Virus record (IMG/VR): IMGVR_UViG_3300031862_000019
Coordinates: 1 to 34,717 of that record
Length of the DNA: 34,717 bases
From: a virus
Strand: one strand, 5' to 3'
Under the pieces are notes generated by a model. That model saw only the letters and a program-made list of their open reading frames with translations. It did no database searches and was not told the DNA's origin. Within the stretch, counting starts at the first letter, position 1; every line of letters starts with the position of its first letter. Shown here in pieces: positions 4,550 through 29,705 of the stretch. The translations under genes were made by a program, and so were the position numbers.

Positions 4550-5413
4550 TTATAATTTTACTACATTATTTTGTTTTTTCCGATAAGAATTAACAATTTG
4601 AACTACATTATAATAAAGCCACCTGAAAGAAGTCATCTTCCCAGAATAAAATTTATCTTTCGCCCCAATTCTGATTGCCATTTCCGTTCCCTTAACCCCG
4701 AACTTTTTAAGACACAACCACGCATATCTCCGATTTTGTTTCTCCGATTCATCAAGTTTCTTTATATCAATTTCCTTTTTCAATAATTCGGTCAAATAAT
4801 TTATATCCTCATTCGGCACTTTTTTAACCACGACTTCCCCCGCCTTTATATGAGGATTATCCCTCATTGTCCTATGGCATCTTTTACAATGCCAGAACTT
4901 AACCTCCTCCAATTCTTCTGCGGGGTGAGGACAATTTATAATCTCCTCCATTGACATATCTTTCTGTAATAAGGTCTCTTTTAATTCCCGAACTGACATC
5001 ACTCTCGCCTGTTCCTTCCAATCTTTAAAATTAATTTTCCCTTTAAGGATTAGGGGTGCTAAAATATCTAATTTCGTTTGCCCGATTTCCGCCAATTCTG
5101 TTTCCTCTTCTTTTAATTGTTCAATGAAAACTTTATAAATTCTTATTAGTTTTTCTGCCATATTAACTGCCGATTTTGGATTTGCCCCCAAATGAGGCAA
5201 TGGAATTTCTGGTTTATTGCAAAATTCTTCAAAGGTAACCTCCCTTGAACTATCTTCAAACTTATACAATTTATCCTTTTTAATTTGCCATAAACAAAAT
5301 CCCGCCTTCAGAAAACTAATCTGTCCCGTCAATAAAACCTTCTTTAGAGCTTCCACCAAATCAAAATACTTCTTCGCTTGTTTTTCTCCATCAACGATTT
5401 TTTGGGTAGTCAT
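4550..5413 (-). CDS. Hypothetical protein with zinc-ribbon centre, 287 aa
   Basis: The protein follows the SSB-like gene by 4 bases and is probably cotranscribed with the nuclease and SSB. The N-terminal ~140 residues are helical (LKAGFCLWQIKKDKLYKF, then NMAEKLIRIYKVFIEQL), similar in style to helix-turn-helix or ParB-like adaptor regions. A probable zinc site occupies residues ~160-180 (CPHP then HCKRCHR). The C-terminal part is basic and helical. Its place beside recombination genes suggests a role in replication or as an SSB partner, but no family is identified. Confidence 0.6.
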   Translation of the reverse strand: MTTQKIVDGEKQAKKYFDLVEALKKVLLTGQISFLKAGFCLWQIKKDKLYKFEDSSREVTFEEFCNKPEIPLPHLGANPKSAVNMAEKLIRIYKVFIEQLKEEETELAEIGQTKLDILAPLILKGKINFKDWKEQARVMSVRELKETLLQKDMSMEEIINCPHPAEELEEVKFWHCKRCHRTMRDNPHIKAGEVVVKKVPNEDINYLTELLKKEIDIKKLDESEKQNRRYAWLCLKKFGVKGTEMAIRIGAKDKFYSGKMTSFRWLYYNVVQIVNSYRKKQNNVVKL

Positions 5414-5417
5414 ATTT

Positions 5418-6257
5418 TTAAAATGGAATATCTTTTATATTTATTGCTTCTTCTTCCTCAATAATAGGAAAACCATCTTTCGGGTCTATCCTCTTTTTTG
5501 GATTTCTGATAATTGGTCTTGAGGCATCTTCCATCCCTTCTTCTTCAACAACTTCCTCCTCTACTACGGGCTTATTGTCGGCATAAAACGCCTCAACCTT
5601 CTCAAGACCTTCAAAAACCTCTTTAATCTTTTCCTCCACGACCATTTCTTGTTCAACATTCAATTTTTTCCCCCTCTGAAAACTCATAGCAAAATAATTT
5701 TTACGCAATGCCTCATTTGTTTCCTCTCCTATTCCGACCACAGTTTCAAATTCGTAGATATGCTCATTCGGTTTAAATTCCTTCCAATAGTCAAAAAGAT
5801 AACTCAATCCCTTCCCCTTAACCACAAGTTTCACCACTTCCACATCTTCCCCTTCCGCCAAGCCAAGCAAAAAATAAATAGATTGCCTCATTTTAAGATT
5901 TGGATATTTCTCCCTCAATTCTTGAATCGTTCCTTCCGTTATCAACTGACTTCTCCCTCCCTTTGTCCCCCTCTCAAAAAGAGAAACTTTATCTTTCCAA
6001 CTATTATGTTCGTTGGTATAACGAGAATATGATTTTGTAAATTCCGAAAACGACCTTCGGACTTTTAACATTACTCCTGAAATTTGTTCTCCAAGTTCTA
6101 TTCTTATTGTTCTTTTTTCCCCCTCCTTTGCGTCTTCATTTGTGATAAATTTGTAAAATTTACCTTCCTCCCCGTGTAATTTGACAATAGGGACAATGTA
6201 TTGTGGGGCAGATTTTATTGTATCTTCCCCCGACATTTTTGATAAATCTGGATTCAT
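5418..6257 (-). CDS. Probable single-stranded DNA-binding protein, 279 aa
   Basis: Residues ~20-200 are a beta-rich globular region. Residues ~225-279 form a disordered, very acidic tail rich in E and V that ends in NIKDIPF. A terminal acidic-DIPF peptide is the hallmark of bacterial SSB tails, which recruit replication and repair partners. The gene lies directly downstream of a zinc ribbon and a PD-(D/E)XK nuclease, the usual company of a phage recombination SSB. I cannot recognise the OB fold by eye, so the role rests on tail and context. The length exceeds typical SSB (~170 aa), more like large phage versions. Confidence 0.65.
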   Translation of the reverse strand: MNPDLSKMSGEDTIKSAPQYIVPIVKLHGEEGKFYKFITNEDAKEGEKRTIRIELGEQISGVMLKVRRSFSEFTKSYSRYTNEHNSWKDKVSLFERGTKGGRSQLITEGTIQELREKYPNLKMRQSIYFLLGLAEGEDVEVVKLVVKGKGLSYLFDYWKEFKPNEHIYEFETVVGIGEETNEALRKNYFAMSFQRGKKLNVEQEMVVEEKIKEVFEGLEKVEAFYADNKPVVEEEVVEEEGMEDASRPIIRNPKKRIDPKDGFPIIEEEEAINIKDIPF

Positions 6258-7955: not shown

Positions 7956-7966
7956 GAGCTATCAGT

Positions 7967-7981
7967 CATATTCAACTATGA
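7967..7981 (-). repeat. 15-base intergenic motif, copy 1
   Basis: CATATTCAACTATGA on the plus strand (TCATAGTTGAATATG on the minus strand), identical to copies at 19234-19248 and 27355-27369. The similarity to copy 2 extends about 20 bases to the right, across the stop codon of the adjacent gene. The ends are dyad-symmetric (CATA...TATG). Confidence 0.85.
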
Positions 7982-7984
7982 TTT

Positions 7985-8380
7985 TTAAGAAAACTGTCCT
8001 TGCCGATTCCTCTTCCTTTTTAAAGAAATAAAGTGTTGTTTCCTTTTGAACTTTTCCGATTTTTTAAAATGAGAAATTTTTTCCAGATGAAGCCGACCCT
8101 GTTCACAATTATATCTAAAATTTGTATGTCCCCTCTTGAACTGATATTTTTTGCCATCTAAATTTTTATATGTCTCGTTCTCAAAAACCTTCTGCCTCCG
8201 AACTTCCCGAATTCTTAAACATTCAAGGGGTTGAGTTTTATAAAAACCCCATTTCTCTTTGTATTCTGGAATAGTCAAAAAATGCGTCTGCAAATGTCTT
8301 ACAGTTATTTTTTCCATCTTCCTTCCGCACTCCTCACAAATAATAAAATCATATTCAATTTGAGGAATCCCATAACCCAT
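7985..8380 (-). CDS. Ros/MucR-like zinc-finger protein, ~131 aa
   Basis: The segment FIICEECGRKMEKITVRHLQTHFLTIPEYKEKWGF (quoted as Cys-x2-Cys, then His-x3-4-His, then EYKEKWG) matches the Ros/MucR pattern of a zinc finger followed by the conserved Tyr-x-x-Lys-Trp-Gly. A basic C-terminal half follows, rich in Lys/Arg and ending in RNRQGQFS. An open frame extends upstream to 8488, but that part overlaps the previous gene by 100 bases and looks out of frame, so ATG 8380, 8 bases after the previous stop, is preferred. Likely a DNA-binding regulator; in phages such domains also occur next to homing endonuclease genes. Confidence 0.7.
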   Translation of the reverse strand: MGYGIPQIEYDFIICEECGRKMEKITVRHLQTHFLTIPEYKEKWGFYKTQPLECLRIREVRRQKVFENETYKNLDGKKYQFKRGHTNFRYNCEQGRLHLEKISHFKKSEKFKRKQHFISLKRKRNRQGQFS

Positions 8381-8387
8381 AAATTTA

Positions 8388-8918
8388 TTACTCAAGAATT
8401 TTTGTTTTGATTGGAACTCCCATATAACCAATCCAAAATTCTTGCAGGATATTATCATCCATTGAAGAAACTTCCTTTGCCGATTCAAAATCTTTTAAGA
8501 TTTTTTCTTTCCTATCAACGATTTCAAAAGTTTTAAAAAGCGTATCCCCCTCCGAATTCATACCGATAATTTGTAGCATTTCTTTCCGATTCGGGTCTTG
8601 GCTTGGTATGGGCTGTTCCGCTTCTCCCACATCTATCTTCCTCACTTCCTCTTTTGACAAAATTGAAGCCCACGCTTCGCTTACAAAAATGATAAATTCA
8701 ACCTCAAACTCTTGTTTGTTCGCCCTCTGCCCGAATTGTTTAAAGGCATCTCTCCGATTTTCAAATGCCTTCCCGACCAGAGGCATTATCACTTGTCCAT
8801 TTTTTCCGAAAACCATCGCAACAGGCATCACCTCATCAAATTGTTTGAAATTCAATTTAACTTTTTCCTCTATTTCTGCAAAAATATCTTTGAATTTTTT
8901 TATTTTTTCATTTTCCAT
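8388..8918 (-). CDS. Hypothetical early phage protein, 176 aa
   Basis: The protein has a helical N-terminus, a central hydrophobic stretch (VMPVAMVFGKNGQVIMPLV), a second beta/helix stretch (EVEFIIFVSEAWASIL) and an acidic C-terminal half. The pattern resembles uncharacterised phage proteins with a conserved hydrophobic core around VFVSEAW, but I know no function. There are no metal or membrane motifs. The gene is preceded by stem-loop element B and an AAAGGTTGG motif, with a long AT-rich gap before the start. Confidence 0.6.
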   Translation of the reverse strand: MENEKIKKFKDIFAEIEEKVKLNFKQFDEVMPVAMVFGKNGQVIMPLVGKAFENRRDAFKQFGQRANKQEFEVEFIIFVSEAWASILSKEEVRKIDVGEAEQPIPSQDPNRKEMLQIIGMNSEGDTLFKTFEIVDRKEKILKDFESAKEVSSMDDNILQEFWIGYMGVPIKTKILE

Positions 8919-8944: not shown

Positions 8945-9012
8945 CCAACCTTTCTCCGAGAATTAACTTCTCGCCCTTGCCAACAAGGATAATGGCAAGG
9001 ACAAAAGTCAAT
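8945..9012 (-). repeat. Stem-loop leader element B
   Basis: An outer stem of ATTAACTT (8962-8969) with AAGTCAAT (9005-9012) allows one G-U pair in RNA. The inner stem is CCTTGCC (8975-8981) with GGCAAGG (8994-9000). On the minus strand the structure is followed by AAAGGTTGG (8945-8953) and an AT-rich stretch leading to the next ATG. The outer arms and flanks match element A at 9368-9436 while the inner stem sequence is different, so structure rather than sequence is kept. It overlaps the stop codon of the 107-aa gene. Confidence 0.75.
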
Positions 9013-9335
9013 CATTTTTTACTCAATTTTTCTTCAGCTTCTTCCAAGCTATCAGCACCTTCTATTATTTCTTCAGCTTCTAATTCTTCCGCTCTTCTTT
9101 CTTCGGCTTCCAATTTCCCAGTCGCCCCAACTAAAGTTTCAAGCATTTTGCCCTGAAGTTCAATAATTTTACTTTGAGTTTCTTTTACAAATTCCCCCAT
9201 AACCTCACTTGCTTTTTTAAATAAAGGTGCGGTCATTCCTCTCGCCTCAATCCAACCGATTTTGCCAGCATTATACTGGTTGATAATCGCCTCAATTTCA
9301 CTTTTAATTTGTTCTAACTCATCTTTTTTTTCCAT
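9012..9335 (-). CDS. Coiled-coil hypothetical protein, 107 aa
   Basis: The first gene after the strong early promoter near 9.52 kb. Charged and Ala/Glu/Leu-rich heptads run through most of the protein (residues ~40-105), ending in a very acidic stretch and Lys-Lys, so it is probably an extended coiled coil. No catalytic motif. It is flanked on both sides by matching stem-loop elements in the same orientation, which makes it look like a cassette. Function unknown. Confidence 0.6.
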   Translation of the reverse strand: MEKKDELEQIKSEIEAIINQYNAGKIGWIEARGMTAPLFKKASEVMGEFVKETQSKIIELQGKMLETLVGATGKLEAEERRAEELEAEEIIEGADSLEEAEEKLSKK

Positions 9336-9367
9336 ATTTAATGAAATAAATTGCGAATAATTTTTTA

Positions 9368-9436
9368 CCGACCTTTAATGATTAACTTCCCGTTTCTATC
9401 CCGCAGGGTCTTGCGGAACAGAAACCAAAAGTCAAT
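9368..9436 (-). repeat. Stem-loop leader element A
   Basis: The outer stem is ATTAACTT (9381-9388) with AAGTCAAT (9429-9436). The inner stem is GTTTCTATCCCGCA (9392-9405) with TGCGGAACAGAAAC (9412-9425), 14 pairs including G-U wobbles, closed by a 6-base loop. On the minus strand it is followed by AAAGGTCGG (9368-9376) and an AT-rich leader to ATG 9335. It lies inside the transcript from the promoter at 9510-9537. Confidence 0.8.
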
Positions 9437-9509
9437 TCCCCAGAATCATATTCCCGATTATTCTTTTTTTAAAAAAATTTCATTGACAAGATTCTCCTCT
9501 TCTACTTTC

Positions 9510-9537
9510 ATTATAGCATATCTGTAGAATTTGTCAA
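9510..9537 (-). promoter_or_regulatory. Consensus sigma-70 promoter for the early genes
   Basis: On the minus strand TTGACA (9532-9537), a 16-base spacer and TATAAT (9510-9515). Both hexamers are perfect. An 8-base C run abuts the -35 element. An inverted copy of the -35 flank (TTGACAAGATTC on the plus strand, 9483-9494) makes a symmetric pair around the start site that could be an operator. It drives the coiled-coil gene and probably the following early genes. Confidence 0.85.
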
Positions 9538-19102: not shown

Positions 19103-19233
19103 ATAATACGTCCTTAAAACGATTTCTCCCCTATAAAAAACGATTTTTATTGTAAAGACGATGTCTATTCAAGCTATTCATTTTTATTTAAAATTACGCA
19201 CATTTCCTCCTCAAATCTATCCATTCTCAAATG

Positions 19234-19248
19234 CATATTCAACTATGA
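19234..19248 (-). repeat. 15-base intergenic motif, copy 2
   Basis: Identical to copies at 7967-7981 and 27355-27369. It lies just after the tape measure stop codon; similarity to copy 1 continues into the gene end (GGCAAGG...AGTTT). The rest of the 148-base gap to Dit holds an orphan Shine-Dalgarno-like GAGGAGG (minus strand, near 19209) and a 20-codon frame of doubtful value beginning at the motif's own ATG. Confidence 0.85.
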
Positions 19249-19250
19249 TT

Positions 19251-21449
19251 TTAATAAACTCCCCTTGCCGCTTTTTCAAAATCCCTCATTAAAACATTTC
19301 TTATTTTATCCACTAACCGATTTTCGTCTGCCTCCTTCGTAAGCGACATTCCTCCATAAAAATTAACATTTACCATCGGAAATTTCCCCGCAGGTAAAAC
19401 AAATTCTCCAGCGTGAACCATTGCCATTCCCGTATTTGGAACTAAACCTCCTCTTTGAAATCCGAAAAGAGTTCCGAATTCTTTTTTAACTCCTTCCCAC
19501 CAACCTTTCGCACCTCCTCCTTCTTCTTTATATTTTATCTGTCCTTCCGCTACCGCTTCCCCAACCTTCCCACCAACTTTTTGGAGAAATTTTCCAAAAG
19601 GAGTTTTCTCAATGGCATCAGCAATCCCTTGCACAATTCCTTTCATTATTGCACCTCCAAGAGTTATCCCAGTTGAGGTCATTTGTCTTGACCAATCTTG
19701 AATTACACTTGCGGTAAGTATTTTAGAAAAATCGGTTTGGATTGTAGGGCTTATCATTGTGGCAACTCCTCCTGCGGGCGTAGTCGTTCCCGTTGTTGTT
19801 TTTGCCAATTTTTCCGCAACATTTTGAGTAGTCGCCAATTTCGTCTGCACACTTTCAATCCCAGCCAACTGAATCTTGACCGCATCATCAATGTATTTTC
19901 CGACTTCATTTTCTATTTCTTTGAAAGCAGGCATTGTCGCCTTCGCAGATGTAATCACATCATCAACCCAATCTTCCTGTGCCATTGTAATTTTGGAAAT
20001 GGTTTCCACAGTATCATTGTGAATTTCCGCCAAACTTTCTTTGAAATCTTCGGTTCTCTCCGCCAATTTACTTTGAATTTCCGCCCTTTGTTCATCATAT
20101 TGAGCAATTTCCTCAATCCGACTTTTCGCAAGTTCATCTAATTTGTCTTTAAAATTATCTTTTGCTTCCTTAACTTCCCTCGCATATCTTTCTTTAACCA
20201 AATCAATTTCGTCCTTGTTCATTTCGCTCTGAACCATAATCCTATCCTCCGAATGTTTTTTCAAAAATGCTTCCTCCTCCGCAATTTTCATTTGCAAATC
20301 TGCAACCTTGACTTCGTTAATCTCCTCCGCCATATTCAACTCTTCATTCAGATTTGTCTTGTAATCCCTCAATTTTTCCTGATGGCTTTTTATTTCTTCA
20401 GCGATACTCTGTTTATAATCGGTTTCCTTTTCAAGATTAGTTTTTGCGAATTCTTCCCGCAAATCTTCCTCTTGTTTAGTAATCTTGTCCAAAGCGTCTT
20501 TATGCTTTTTAGCCAAATCATTTAGGTCTTTAATGATTTCTTCTTTCGCCTTTTTATAATCTTTTGTTAATTTTAAAACACTTTTTGTTTGGCTATCAAA
20601 TGCCTCCCGAATTCCAAGTGTCGCTTTCGCCACCGCATCTCTTTGTTTTCCCTGAATTTCTGCAACCTCATTGGCTTGGTTAATCATTTCTTTTGTTTTC
20701 ATTAAATCCTCTATCTTTGCAGAATCCATTAAGCCCATTTTTTGTAAAAAATTACTAATCGCAGGTAAAACCCTTCCCCCGATTGCTATTGAAAGAGCTT
20801 CCCAATAATCTTTTAATTTTGAAGTAGTCAAATTAAATTCATTCAATCTTTCAATGTCTTTTTGCGTAATAGTTGCCCCCATTAACTCACCGATTTGTCT
20901 TAATTGTTCTCCTGTCCTTTGAAATAGAGATTGTAAACCAATCGCTCCCCTTCCGAATAATTGAAAAGTGGCATTTGCCCTTTCCGCACCATTCTCCATT
21001 TTCCCTATCGCATCAACAGAATCATAAAAAACATCCGTTAAACTCTTGCTTTTACCTCCTGTATCAACAATGGAAACCCCCATTTTTTTAAAAATTTCGG
21101 GAGTCATTATTATTCTTCTTGACAACATCAAAAACGCATATCCCAATCTTTCCGTATCAACTCCCAATGCCTGTGAAATACTTATTAAATTACTCGCCTC
21201 CTCTGCCGACATTCCCGTTAAATCCGTCAGGTATTTCGTCTGTTTAACCAGACCCATATAACTTCTCGTTGCCATTGTGATTACTCCAACAACTGCCCCC
21301 ACTACCCCAGCCAATCCCATCAAAATCTTCCTCGCATTTCCCGATTGCAAGCCAAAATCAGCCATTACTTTTATCGCTTGTTTCATCGGACTTGAAAATT
21401 TAGAAATGTCCGCCTTTATTTCACTGACTAAAGTTCCAACGATGGCCAT
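19251..21449 (-). CDS. Tape measure protein, 732 aa
   Basis: The tape measure fixes tail length and passes into the host with the DNA. Residues ~40-65 are hydrophobic (KILMGLAGVVGAVVGVITMA), ~260-530 form a very long charged coiled coil, and the C-terminal region has RGGLVPNTGMAMVHAGEFVLPAG, a pattern common at tape-measure C-termini. At about 0.15 nm per residue, 732 aa would give a tail near 110 nm (inference). Shine-Dalgarno AGGAT precedes ATG 21449 by 7 bases. It follows the chaperone extension frame by 4 bases, as in lambda-type operons. Confidence 0.88.
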   Translation of the reverse strand: MAIVGTLVSEIKADISKFSSPMKQAIKVMADFGLQSGNARKILMGLAGVVGAVVGVITMATRSYMGLVKQTKYLTDLTGMSAEEASNLISISQALGVDTERLGYAFLMLSRRIIMTPEIFKKMGVSIVDTGGKSKSLTDVFYDSVDAIGKMENGAERANATFQLFGRGAIGLQSLFQRTGEQLRQIGELMGATITQKDIERLNEFNLTTSKLKDYWEALSIAIGGRVLPAISNFLQKMGLMDSAKIEDLMKTKEMINQANEVAEIQGKQRDAVAKATLGIREAFDSQTKSVLKLTKDYKKAKEEIIKDLNDLAKKHKDALDKITKQEEDLREEFAKTNLEKETDYKQSIAEEIKSHQEKLRDYKTNLNEELNMAEEINEVKVADLQMKIAEEEAFLKKHSEDRIMVQSEMNKDEIDLVKERYAREVKEAKDNFKDKLDELAKSRIEEIAQYDEQRAEIQSKLAERTEDFKESLAEIHNDTVETISKITMAQEDWVDDVITSAKATMPAFKEIENEVGKYIDDAVKIQLAGIESVQTKLATTQNVAEKLAKTTTGTTTPAGGVATMISPTIQTDFSKILTASVIQDWSRQMTSTGITLGGAIMKGIVQGIADAIEKTPFGKFLQKVGGKVGEAVAEGQIKYKEEGGGAKGWWEGVKKEFGTLFGFQRGGLVPNTGMAMVHAGEFVLPAGKFPMVNVNFYGGMSLTKEADENRLVDKIRNVLMRDFEKAARGVY

Positions 21450-22016: not shown

Positions 22017-22517
22017 TTAAAGCGTTCCCTCACCAGCAATAAATACTTTTACATCACGAGCAGTCATTTCAAAATCACATTCCCCATACTCCTCCAGAGT
22101 GGCAGAAGTCGGCATTGAAAGAATAATCGCATCAGTAAATTGGAACTGAACCGCTTTGTCCGTGTCATCATCAATATAACCCGTAAATGTTGGATTCAGA
22201 GTTGGTGCTTGTCCGTCTTTTACTGAAACCATATAATCGTTATTGTCATTAGCCCCTTCTCCCATCATCGCTTCGTAGACTTCCTTATTGATTGATTTCA
22301 CCTTACCTCTTAATGCGACTTTGAATGTCGCTCTTTTGATAGCGGCTAACTTGATTGAATTCAATCTCCTTAATTCCTTTTCAGCGAAAGAAACCTCAAT
22401 AGAAACATTATCAAGATTAACTAACCGATGGGAAATTGGAGAACCCCCCAAATCAATATAGCCCGTATTAAAGAATAATTTTGCTGTGAGTGGCGTGCCA
22501 TCTGCTATTTTAGGCAT
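22017..22517 (-). CDS. Major tail tube protein, 166 aa
   Basis: Its place directly before the chaperone pair and its composition (beta-rich: ISHRLVNLDNVSIEVSFAE, RATFKVALRGKVKS, CDFEMTARDVKVFIAGEG) fit the tube-forming protein of a siphophage. The length is usual. The start at ATG 22517 has only GTGGAT as ribosome-binding site, although the product should be abundant. The hairpin with an AAAGGTCGG motif lies ~85-120 bases upstream. Confidence 0.75.
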   Translation of the reverse strand: MPKIADGTPLTAKLFFNTGYIDLGGSPISHRLVNLDNVSIEVSFAEKELRRLNSIKLAAIKRATFKVALRGKVKSINKEVYEAMMGEGANDNNDYMVSVKDGQAPTLNPTFTGYIDDDTDKAVQFQFTDAIILSMPTSATLEEYGECDFEMTARDVKVFIAGEGTL

Positions 22518-22602
22518 AAATCCACAATTCTTTAGGCAATCATTTTCCCTTATTATTTTAAAGAAAAATAATCACCTGTTGAATTTAATTACTTTTAATT
22601 TT

Positions 22603-22634
22603 CCGACCTTTATGGGGCTTTTAATAATAAGCCC
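22603..22634 (-). repeat. Hairpin with AAAGGTCGG motif upstream of the tail tube
   Basis: On the minus strand GGGCTT (22629-22634) pairs with AAGCCC (22615-22620), and CAT is followed by AAAGGTCGG (22603-22611). The hairpin spans the stop codon of the tail terminator gene. The same hairpin-then-AAAGGTYGG order is found at leader elements A and B. Confidence 0.6.
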
Positions 22635-24695: not shown

Positions 24696-25655
24696 TTATG
24701 TCATTCTAATTGTAATCAATTTATATGGGTCTAACATTCTTTTAACTTCCTCATTTATCGGATTGTATTCCCCCCAGCCCAAGGTCAAATTTCCTGTCCT
24801 AAGGTTATTCAATCCGAGAGGATTTTGTTTCGCTGTCCCCCAGAATTTTCCCGCAATTAATGCAACCGCACATTTAATTTCCTCTGGGATTATATCATAC
24901 CCGAAAGTATAATTTGTCCAGATAATTCCGAGTTGTGATTGCTCCAGAAGAACCGAAGGAATCGGAGCTCCCGTAGTTCCCGCACAAGAAATCAAAGGAA
25001 CTATCTGGTAAAATCTCTGTTGTGGGTGTTGAATCAAATAAGTCAATTCAAATTTTATAAACCATTTCAAAACCTGAATATAAATTGTATTTATTTTCTG
25101 AACGGGAGGATATTTCAACGGAACAGTAGTCAATCTTGGATTTGCAACCTGAATTGTAACATTAGGATAAATCTCATCAATCGTCATCTTTTGAAAATAC
25201 CTCCGACAATACCGATTGACTTCTGAAGAAGCACATAAAAGAAGTTCATCAATAGTCCCATCATTATATTCTGGCGAACTTGCCGATAATCTTAACCCCC
25301 TCGCAATAGGATGTTTTATGAATTCCTCTTTTGTCATATAAGGAATATCATAAGGCACAACCATCGGTTGATTATCTGGAGTATTCATTGGAGTTTCCCA
25401 AAACCCCGAAACCCTTTTCGGAAATTCTATGAGCTGGTCTTCGCCAATCGCTTTATCCGCCTTGAACGCTTTAATCTTAAAAATATACTCCCATTCATCA
25501 ACTCCAGCATAAGTATAATTTGTAATTGGTGGAACAATATCAACAACCTTAACCCAATCCTCAACGTCAGGATTTAAAGGTTTCTTCCAAACCTCATATT
25601 TATCTGCTGTCTCCACAGCGTTCCAACTAATTTGTATATCACGCATTGTTGGCAT
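24696..25655 (-). CDS. FN3-like domain fused to head-tail connector, 319 aa
   Basis: Residues ~5-75 look like a fibronectin type III domain: ISWNAVETADKYEVWKKPL, a linker, NYTYAGVDEWEYIFKIKAF. Residues ~110-319 resemble gp6/gp15-type head-tail connectors: a helix (TIDELLLCASSEVNRYCRRYF), a variable middle and a late helix (IPEEIKCAVALIAGKFWG). Connectors sit under the portal and open the way to the tail. The fused FN3 would probably face outward. The fusion is unusual. No clear Shine-Dalgarno. Confidence 0.65.
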   Translation of the reverse strand: MPTMRDIQISWNAVETADKYEVWKKPLNPDVEDWVKVVDIVPPITNYTYAGVDEWEYIFKIKAFKADKAIGEDQLIEFPKRVSGFWETPMNTPDNQPMVVPYDIPYMTKEEFIKHPIARGLRLSASSPEYNDGTIDELLLCASSEVNRYCRRYFQKMTIDEIYPNVTIQVANPRLTTVPLKYPPVQKINTIYIQVLKWFIKFELTYLIQHPQQRFYQIVPLISCAGTTGAPIPSVLLEQSQLGIIWTNYTFGYDIIPEEIKCAVALIAGKFWGTAKQNPLGLNNLRTGNLTLGWGEYNPINEEVKRMLDPYKLITIRMT

Positions 25656-25670
25656 ATTTTAATCATTCCC

Positions 25671-25701
25671 GACAGGCAACCCCCTAAACGAGTTGCCTGT
25701 C
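25671..25701 (-). repeat. Perfect 10-bp stem-loop before the connector gene
   Basis: GACAGGCAAC (25671-25680) is exactly complementary to GTTGCCTGTC (25692-25701), with an 11-base loop. It lies 15 bases before ATG 25655 on the minus strand. No T tract follows, so an RNA-level control or processing hairpin is more likely than a terminator. Confidence 0.7.
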
Positions 25702-25722
25702 AAGAATGTTTCAAATGAGGCA

Positions 25723-25999: not shown

Positions 26000-26131
26000 A
26001 CTGTTTCTAATTTTCCTTTCATAATTCGGCTTTGTTTCTAACAACCCCGAAACTATTTAGGAAAATCTCCTTTGTATTTAAGTCCTTTAGGGTAGGACTA
26101 ATCCCGACCTTTTCAATTCTTTACAAAGAGT

Positions 26132-26199
26132 TATCCTTTAACTCTTACCACCATCAGGCAATCTCGGTAAGAGATTATTGCCCGATGGATTAAAGGATA
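26132..26199 (-). repeat. Long multi-tier stem-loop downstream of the major capsid gene
   Basis: Outer stem TATCCTTTAA (26132-26141) with TTAAAGGATA (26190-26199); middle stem CCATCAGGCAAT (26151-26162) with ATTGCCCGATGG (26177-26188), one wobble; apical AATCTC/GAGATT. An alternative GAGTTA/TAACTC hairpin shares the left arm, so two folds compete. An AAAGGTCGG motif (26104-26112) follows on the minus strand. Likely an mRNA stabiliser or partial terminator after the most expressed gene. Confidence 0.75.
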
Positions 26200-26240
26200 T
26201 TCCCTCACAAGGAAAAGGTAATTATCGTTCCCAATCTTCA

Positions 26241-27314: not shown

Positions 27315-27369
27315 ATTTTATAATACCAAGTCAGAAAGAGCTTTTTGTAATTGTCATATTCAACTATGA
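27315..27369 (-). promoter_or_regulatory. Candidate capsid-gene promoter with 15-base motif copy 3
   Basis: The motif (27355-27369) is 34 bases upstream of a -10-like TAAAAT (27315-27320), nearly the same spacing (33) as between copy 1 and the -10 of the spoVG promoter. No good -35 is present here, so the motif may bind an activator. The start codon of the capsid gene lies about 35 bases further on. Confidence 0.45.
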
Positions 27370-27456
27370 CTTTCCATTAGCTCCCTACTCAACCCAGAAA
27401 GAATCAATCAATTTTTTGTCCCTTGATAGCGACAGATTAAATTAAATTTTTAAACT

Positions 27457-29415: not shown

Positions 29416-29433
29416 ATAATTTAGTCCTCTTAA

Positions 29434-29479
29434 AATGATTTCATAAGCCCACAATTTCTTATGGACTTATCAAATCATT
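29434..29479 (-). repeat. 17-bp stem-loop just before the protease ribosome-binding site
   Basis: AATGATTT-c-ATAAGCCC (29434-29450) pairs with GGACTTAT-c-AAATCATT (29463-29479): 8 bp, one mismatch, 8 bp with one wobble, loop of 12. It overlaps the stop codon of the 76-aa gene and is followed on the minus strand by the AGAGGA ribosome-binding site of the protease. Confidence 0.75.
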
Positions 29480-29705
29480 CTGCTGGTTCTACTTCTGTTT
29501 TATCCAAAACAGTTTGCCCCTCAAAAGAAACTCCCGCTTGCCATTCATAAGCAAAGAATACTTCTTTTCGCCTTCCTATCCCCGATTCGTCTTTAACCAG
29601 ATATTTATAAACCGCTCCGCTCATATCTTTACTTTTTAAAAATAAACTATTCGGGACATAACCCTCCAAACTCTTTATTAAATTTAATTCTTGTTCTAAA
29701 ATCAT
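29475..29705 (-). CDS. Small hypothetical head-region protein, 76 aa
   Basis: The frame starts at ATG 29705 (4-base overlap with the LamG gene) and ends inside the stem-loop. The protein has a beta-rich core (SGAVYKYLVKDESGIGRRKEVFFAYEWQAG) and an acidic end. Its position suggests a small head accessory, but no family is known to me. Confidence 0.6.
   Translation of the reverse strand: MILEQELNLIKSLEGYVPNSLFLKSKDMSGAVYKYLVKDESGIGRRKEVFFAYEWQAGVSFEGQTVLDKTEVEPAE

Follow-up and report, generated by a model that had tools for sequence, protein, structure and literature searches.

Candidate structured leaders at gene junctions of a phage, with a motif also enriched in one Paceibacteria order

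The RNase III processing hairpins of phage T7 have a long, interrupted stem, lie between genes on the coding strand and occur several times per genome with unlike sequences. Repeated stem-loops are also described for T4-type phages, whose promoter early stem-loops (PeSLs) stand beside early promoters and flank small orphan genes (Arbiol 2010 and Comeau 2014, as cited in PMC4503421). On the bacterial side, Bacteroidetes, Tenericutes and Carsonella initiate translation without an anti-Shine-Dalgarno (anti-SD) sequence and have few SD sites before their genes (PMC6107228). That survey reports no motif complementary to the variant 16S tails, and its text does not mention Parcubacteria or Patescibacteria.

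The locus described here lies in the IMG/VR virus record IMGVR_UViG_3300031862_000019. The window, meaning the whole stretch of DNA analysed, is 34,717 nucleotides long and includes genes for a portal protein, an SU10-like capsid protein, a Cas4-like exonuclease and a SpoVG-like protein. No relatives were retrieved when the two flanking genes, the Cas4-like gene and the exonuclease were searched as single proteins. An earlier note on this DNA had reported two copies, A and B, of a stem-loop leader element with conserved outer arms and different inner stems. The pair is present as described on the minus strand, and the arms ATTGACTTTTG and GAAGTTAAT co-occur in the window exactly twice, at A and at B. 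The reading favoured here, with a probability of roughly 0.5, is that A and B are structured gene-junction leaders of a class found in phages that share a motif with a Paceibacteria order. The features of the locus are:

9510-9537, minus strand: sigma70-type promoter TTGACA-16-TATAAT, matching 12 of 12 consensus positions, upstream of A
9381-9436, minus strand: element A, a hairpin with a 10-bp outer stem, a G/G mismatch, a 14-bp inner stem and a 6-nt loop
9368-9376, minus strand: leader motif AAAGGTCGG after A, recognised by sequence and motif enrichment
9336-9367, minus strand: AT-rich leader (~85% AT) up to the start codon on the A side
9012-9335, minus strand: small gene of 107 amino acids between A and B, of no known family
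8961-9013, minus strand: element B, a hairpin with an outer stem of ~11 bp and an inner stem of 10+2 bp
8945-8953, minus strand: leader motif variant AAAGGTTGG after B, recognised by sequence; the same variant heads a leader in contig L204
8919-8944, minus strand: AT-rich leader (~89% AT) up to the start codon on the B side
8388-8918, minus strand: gene of 176 amino acids downstream of B, of no known family

Each element forms one long hairpin, of 24 bp in A and 23 bp in B, the latter with one unpaired base on its 3' side. In context, the minus-strand RNA folds at -33.7 kcal/mol for A (z -5.2; -8.1 when folded alone) and at -28.9 kcal/mol for B (z -4.9; alone -6.8), and none of 200 shuffles was equally stable. 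The plus strand folds far worse (z -1.5 for A and -2.6 for B) because the stems contain G-U pairs, and the structure is therefore one of the coding-strand RNA, the genes here being on the minus strand. The sequence shared by A and B is limited to the arms, of ~11 and ~9 nt. Their inner segments are unrelated in sequence, though each pairs by itself (14 bp, z -6.4 in A; 10+2 bp with one mismatch, z -4.9 in B), with stability reached by 0 of 500 shuffles in either case. The inner stem length of 14 bp given earlier for A is correct, whereas the 7 bp given for B falls short of its 10+2 bp. It is well supported that the A and B hairpins are coding-strand RNA structures. No Rfam match above the gathering score was found in the window.

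The perfect promoter at 9537-9510 places A in a 5' untranslated region. A alone has a promoter, none being found next to B; the 5' arm of B instead shares bases with the stop codon that ends the 107-amino-acid gene (9335-9012). The promoter before A and the start of B at a stop codon amend the earlier description. A five-codon mini-ORF, MILGN (9432-9449, minus strand), is present in the A leader; its stop codon is inside the 5' arm of the hairpin, mirroring the overlap of B with a gene stop. As had been noticed, AAAGGT(C/T)GG follows both elements (9376-9368 and 8953-8945) and continues into AT-rich leaders that run to ATGGAAAA; it is nevertheless a separate leader motif and not part of the A/B repeat.

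This motif extends well beyond the two elements. Among 8-mers in front of genes of the phage group, AAAGGTCG shows the strongest enrichment, with 15 occurrences observed against 0.34 expected. It is typically positioned 22-45 nt before the ATG with an AT-rich spacer, and is found just downstream of -10 boxes in host and phage genes. SD-like sites occur in the last 20 nt before the start of 7 out of 43 called genes of the window. That AAAGGTCG itself acts as a Shine-Dalgarno sequence was considered and rejected on account of its distance of 22-45 nt and the lack of a consistent complement in 16S loci.

When GTDB genomes were scanned for the AAAGGTCG-AT-ATGAAA leader, 89 stretches matched, with a strong concentration in Paceibacteria. 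Because such a motif-based scan carries a selection effect, one order was sampled separately, and its 80 genomes gave 154 strict matches to the leader versus 23 to the reversed pattern. A sample of the phylum from which three members of the order were removed (113 genomes) had 12 matches versus about 16 for the control; a phylum-wide motif was rejected, as genomes outside the order did not exceed the reversed control. The data support AAAGGTCG as a motif of gene leaders both in these phages and in one Paceibacteria order. The CCUCC anti-SD is missing in 47 of 48 16S tails of the order to which genome G022 belongs, the one tail that has it (G227) looking like foreign sequence. Five hosts examined separately, one of them from the order, are also without an anti-SD. 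Its loss is apparently a trait of the whole G022 order. RNase III (TIGR02191) is encoded by 56 of the 60 genomes searched in the inferred host order. The shared motif suggests that the window phage probably infects Paceibacteria; no relatives of its capsid protein were found in GTDB genomes.

The six best-scoring long coding-strand hairpins of the window are all intergenic. Further long hairpins of the window, besides A and B, are:

22526-22585, minus strand: long junction hairpin before gene 22017-22517, with AAAGGTCGG just upstream of it at about 22603-22611
25658-25715, minus strand: long coding-strand hairpin directly before gene 24696-25655
29432-29481, minus strand: long coding-strand hairpin that overlaps the upstream stop codon, before a gene starting at ~29415

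Elsewhere in the window, AAAATCATAGTTGAATATGA is present in three minus-strand copies with at most one mismatch (7966-7985, 19233-19252 and 27354-27373), a number reached in 0 of 100 shuffles. It contains the dyad TCATA-n6-TATGA. One copy is just upstream of the TTGACA-TAAAAT promoter of the SpoVG-like gene and another upstream of the capsid gene, and the repeat looks like an operator or a phage promoter element. After the capsid gene, at about 26060-26112 (minus strand), a leader AAAGGTCGGG or AAAGGTCGAGG precedes a small hairpin with loop (C/T)ACCCTAA, which may form a GGG/CCC pseudoknot. The same arrangement is found at G002 11112, G003 11768 and G015 22958, with differing stems among the four related phages. 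A hairpin at 26131-26205 (minus strand), also after the capsid gene, has two mutually exclusive pairings, CCATCGGGCAAT/ATTGCCTGATGG or CTCTTACC/GGTAAGAG, and might be a switch. An insertion in the DNA methylase gene at 889-2886 has the look of a LAGLIDADG-type endonuclease or an intein (SGFVDGEGCFRI...).

The exact arm pattern of A and B gave six matches in IMG/VR attributable to chance, mostly inside coding sequence, and no copy of the elements is present in 20 related contigs collected by capsid alignment. In one 76% identical relative (L010, 9387-11011) the capsid gene lies in two frames with ~370 nt between them, as by an intron or insertion. The capsid-related contigs have long coding-strand hairpins at gene junctions again, with sequences unlike each other; in G011, like in A and B, a hairpin, here with the end AAGTTAAT..., leads into the motif, here AAAGGTCA. 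Independent members were sought by searching IMG/VR for the leader pattern, which yielded 38 contigs chosen regardless of hairpins. In these, the window and two contigs of earlier matches, 23 of 123 leaders have an upstream fold with z < -3. The contigs compared are fragments. As the motif was what led to L187, L204 and L180, their hairpins, and not their motif content, are independent evidence.

The full architecture, in which long hairpins of unlike inner stems precede AAAGGTCG(G), then 22-45 nt of AT-rich leader and the ATG, is found in L187, L204, L180, L169 and G011. Six hairpin leaders were counted in L187, five in L204 (L204/L068) and three in L180. The terminase of L187 is unrelated to that of the relatives of the window phage. 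The earlier note had named a lack of further members in relatives as a refutation; for the architecture this fails, with 14 more elements examined in five other contigs, while the arm sequence of A and B has no further copy. The sense fold is more stable than the antisense in all 16 elements, A and B included, by a mean of 9 kcal/mol, supporting the earlier argument that compensation in the inner stems reflects a selected RNA structure. Rfam has no match at the elements of L187, L204, L180 and L045, the only hits being tRNAs in L180, a contig that has an array of 12 tRNA genes (4891-5843) along with its hairpin leaders. Neutral drift after a single leader had been duplicated, with the pairing left over and functionless, would agree with the finding of only two copies, both of them in the window, and of no copy in related contigs. 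It is very improbable, as two unrelated but well-paired inner stems are not expected from one ancestor without selection and the pattern recurs in unrelated phages.

Like A and B, several contigs repeat one outer-arm pair around inner stems that differ. Such alike outer and unlike inner stems are found in L187, L204/L068, L180, G011 and L103/L205 (the last from a MAG labelled Desulfobacterota that may be misbinned), and the inner stems differ in every case among the hairpin leaders compared. The outer arms ATCTCTTTA and ATAAGGAG..TTTAAAGGTCGG are common to L187 and L204, and L180 and L103 have another common pair (TAGCC.TTGA / AATGAG.GGCTA). Conservation of the outer stem within a phage, and not of the inner one, is what a protein-bound site would show, and the elements are clustered in runs of small genes. 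Translational control, by a phage or host protein that binds the outer stem or by gating of the leader, with co-regulation of the small genes, is possible though doubtful: outer stems differ between phages, and in most motif-bearing cases motif and start codon are outside the stem, with 22-50 nt free after the hairpin, so that it does not mask the start.

The earlier view of a cassette that brackets a single small gene holds only loosely: an orphan gene does lie between A and B, but every junction has a hairpin to itself, and the comparisons gave no instance of a gene that had moved together with its leader. Mobile cassettes at gene boundaries, of the T4 PeSL type, in which small genes are shuffled by recombination at repeated leader modules, would also account for the early-type promoter adjoining A and for the series of orphan genes in L187 and in L204, where each gene has a hairpin leader. 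B has no promoter, however, the arms shared by A and B are too short (~11 and ~9 nt) to speak for such modules, and the one distant homolog of the 176-amino-acid gene, in G017, has a leader without the hairpin and AAAGGTCG, which makes cassettes unlikely.

Among 15 hairpins with a gene upstream, 13 start close to the end of its stop codon, from 9 nt ahead of that point to 8 nt beyond it. Hairpins directly after stop codons, and a T-run following the stem in one element of the L103 group, would suit intergenic terminators or attenuators of transcription that are weak or decayed. This is quite unlikely, as the U-tract is absent at A and B, the terminator scan calls neither, and the long stems lead at once into the leader of the following gene. 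Without a U-tract, A and B are not plain terminators. Nearly all of the 16 elements have 15-25 bp with a bulge or mismatch. Hairpins are present at 18 of 51 junctions with the motif versus 19 of 104 without it (p = 0.027), in a set that takes in motif-picked contigs and some stretches of one contig.

As structured gene-junction leaders, A and B would be units that begin at the stop codon of the preceding gene (or at a promoter) and continue with a long hairpin, whose two stems are stacked, then AAAGGU(C/U)GG, an unstructured AT-rich stretch of 22-45 nt and the AUG. AAAGGUCG and the AT-rich stretch would be a ribosome-entry leader in place of a Shine-Dalgarno sequence. The hairpin, of 15-25 bp with an interruption near the junction of inner and outer stems, would be cut by host RNase III or act as another barrier. 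The upstream message would then keep a protective 3' hairpin, and the downstream AAAGGUCG leader would be freed and lie near the 5' end of its message. The inner stem, if selected only for pairing, would drift, and the outer stem would be kept within a phage as part of a processing or recognition site. The likeness to T7 suggests that the hairpin is probably a host RNase III substrate; the fit to a processing hairpin comes from its position at stop codons, its length of ~two helical turns, the interruption, the missing U-tract and the RNase III of the host order. Against this explanation, A is promoter-proximal in a 5' untranslated region where only a five-codon mini-ORF ends, and most AAAGGTCG leaders have no hairpin while some junction hairpins have no motif. 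The layout may shape cutting and translation of gene-dense messages. A broader proposal is put forward tentatively: the Paceibacteria order without anti-SD would recruit ribosomes through AAAGGUCG and the AT-rich stretch, and its phages would use the same leader preceded by long, fast-evolving hairpins, so that every cistron in a dense operon would have a processed 5' leader to itself.

For the start of translation in bacteria without an anti-SD, the survey in PMC6107228 found no replacement motif. A concrete candidate now comes from phages and from a large, uncultured host order, and the phage leaders allow structure and motif to be tested separately. The viruses of Paceibacteria are difficult to assign, and leaders that combine hairpin and motif may be of use in recognising them.

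The A/B class resembles the RNase III sites of T7 in having long, interrupted, intergenic stems of ~two helical turns on the transcribed strand, and RNase III is encoded in the inferred host order (56/60). It differs from them by outer stems that are repeated within a phage, by the AAAGGTCG leader after the hairpin, by an inferred host without anti-SD and by cleavage that is here a prediction. Unlike intrinsic terminators, no GC-rich stem with a U-tract is called at A or B. Unlike Shine-Dalgarno leaders, SD-like sites precede 7 of 43 genes and CCUCC is missing in 47 of 48 tails of the order. The elements depart from the T4 PeSLs, as these are described in PMC4503421, in that a promoter is found at A and none at B, so that there is no early promoter for each stem-loop, and in that the shared arms have only ~11 and ~9 nt and no shuffled copy was found. 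The system described here is like the organisms of PMC6107228 in the loss of CCUCC from the 16S tail and the few SD sites before genes, and unlike them in the enrichment of a leader motif, AAAGGTCG, 22-45 nt upstream; this motif likewise has no clear complementarity to the 16S.
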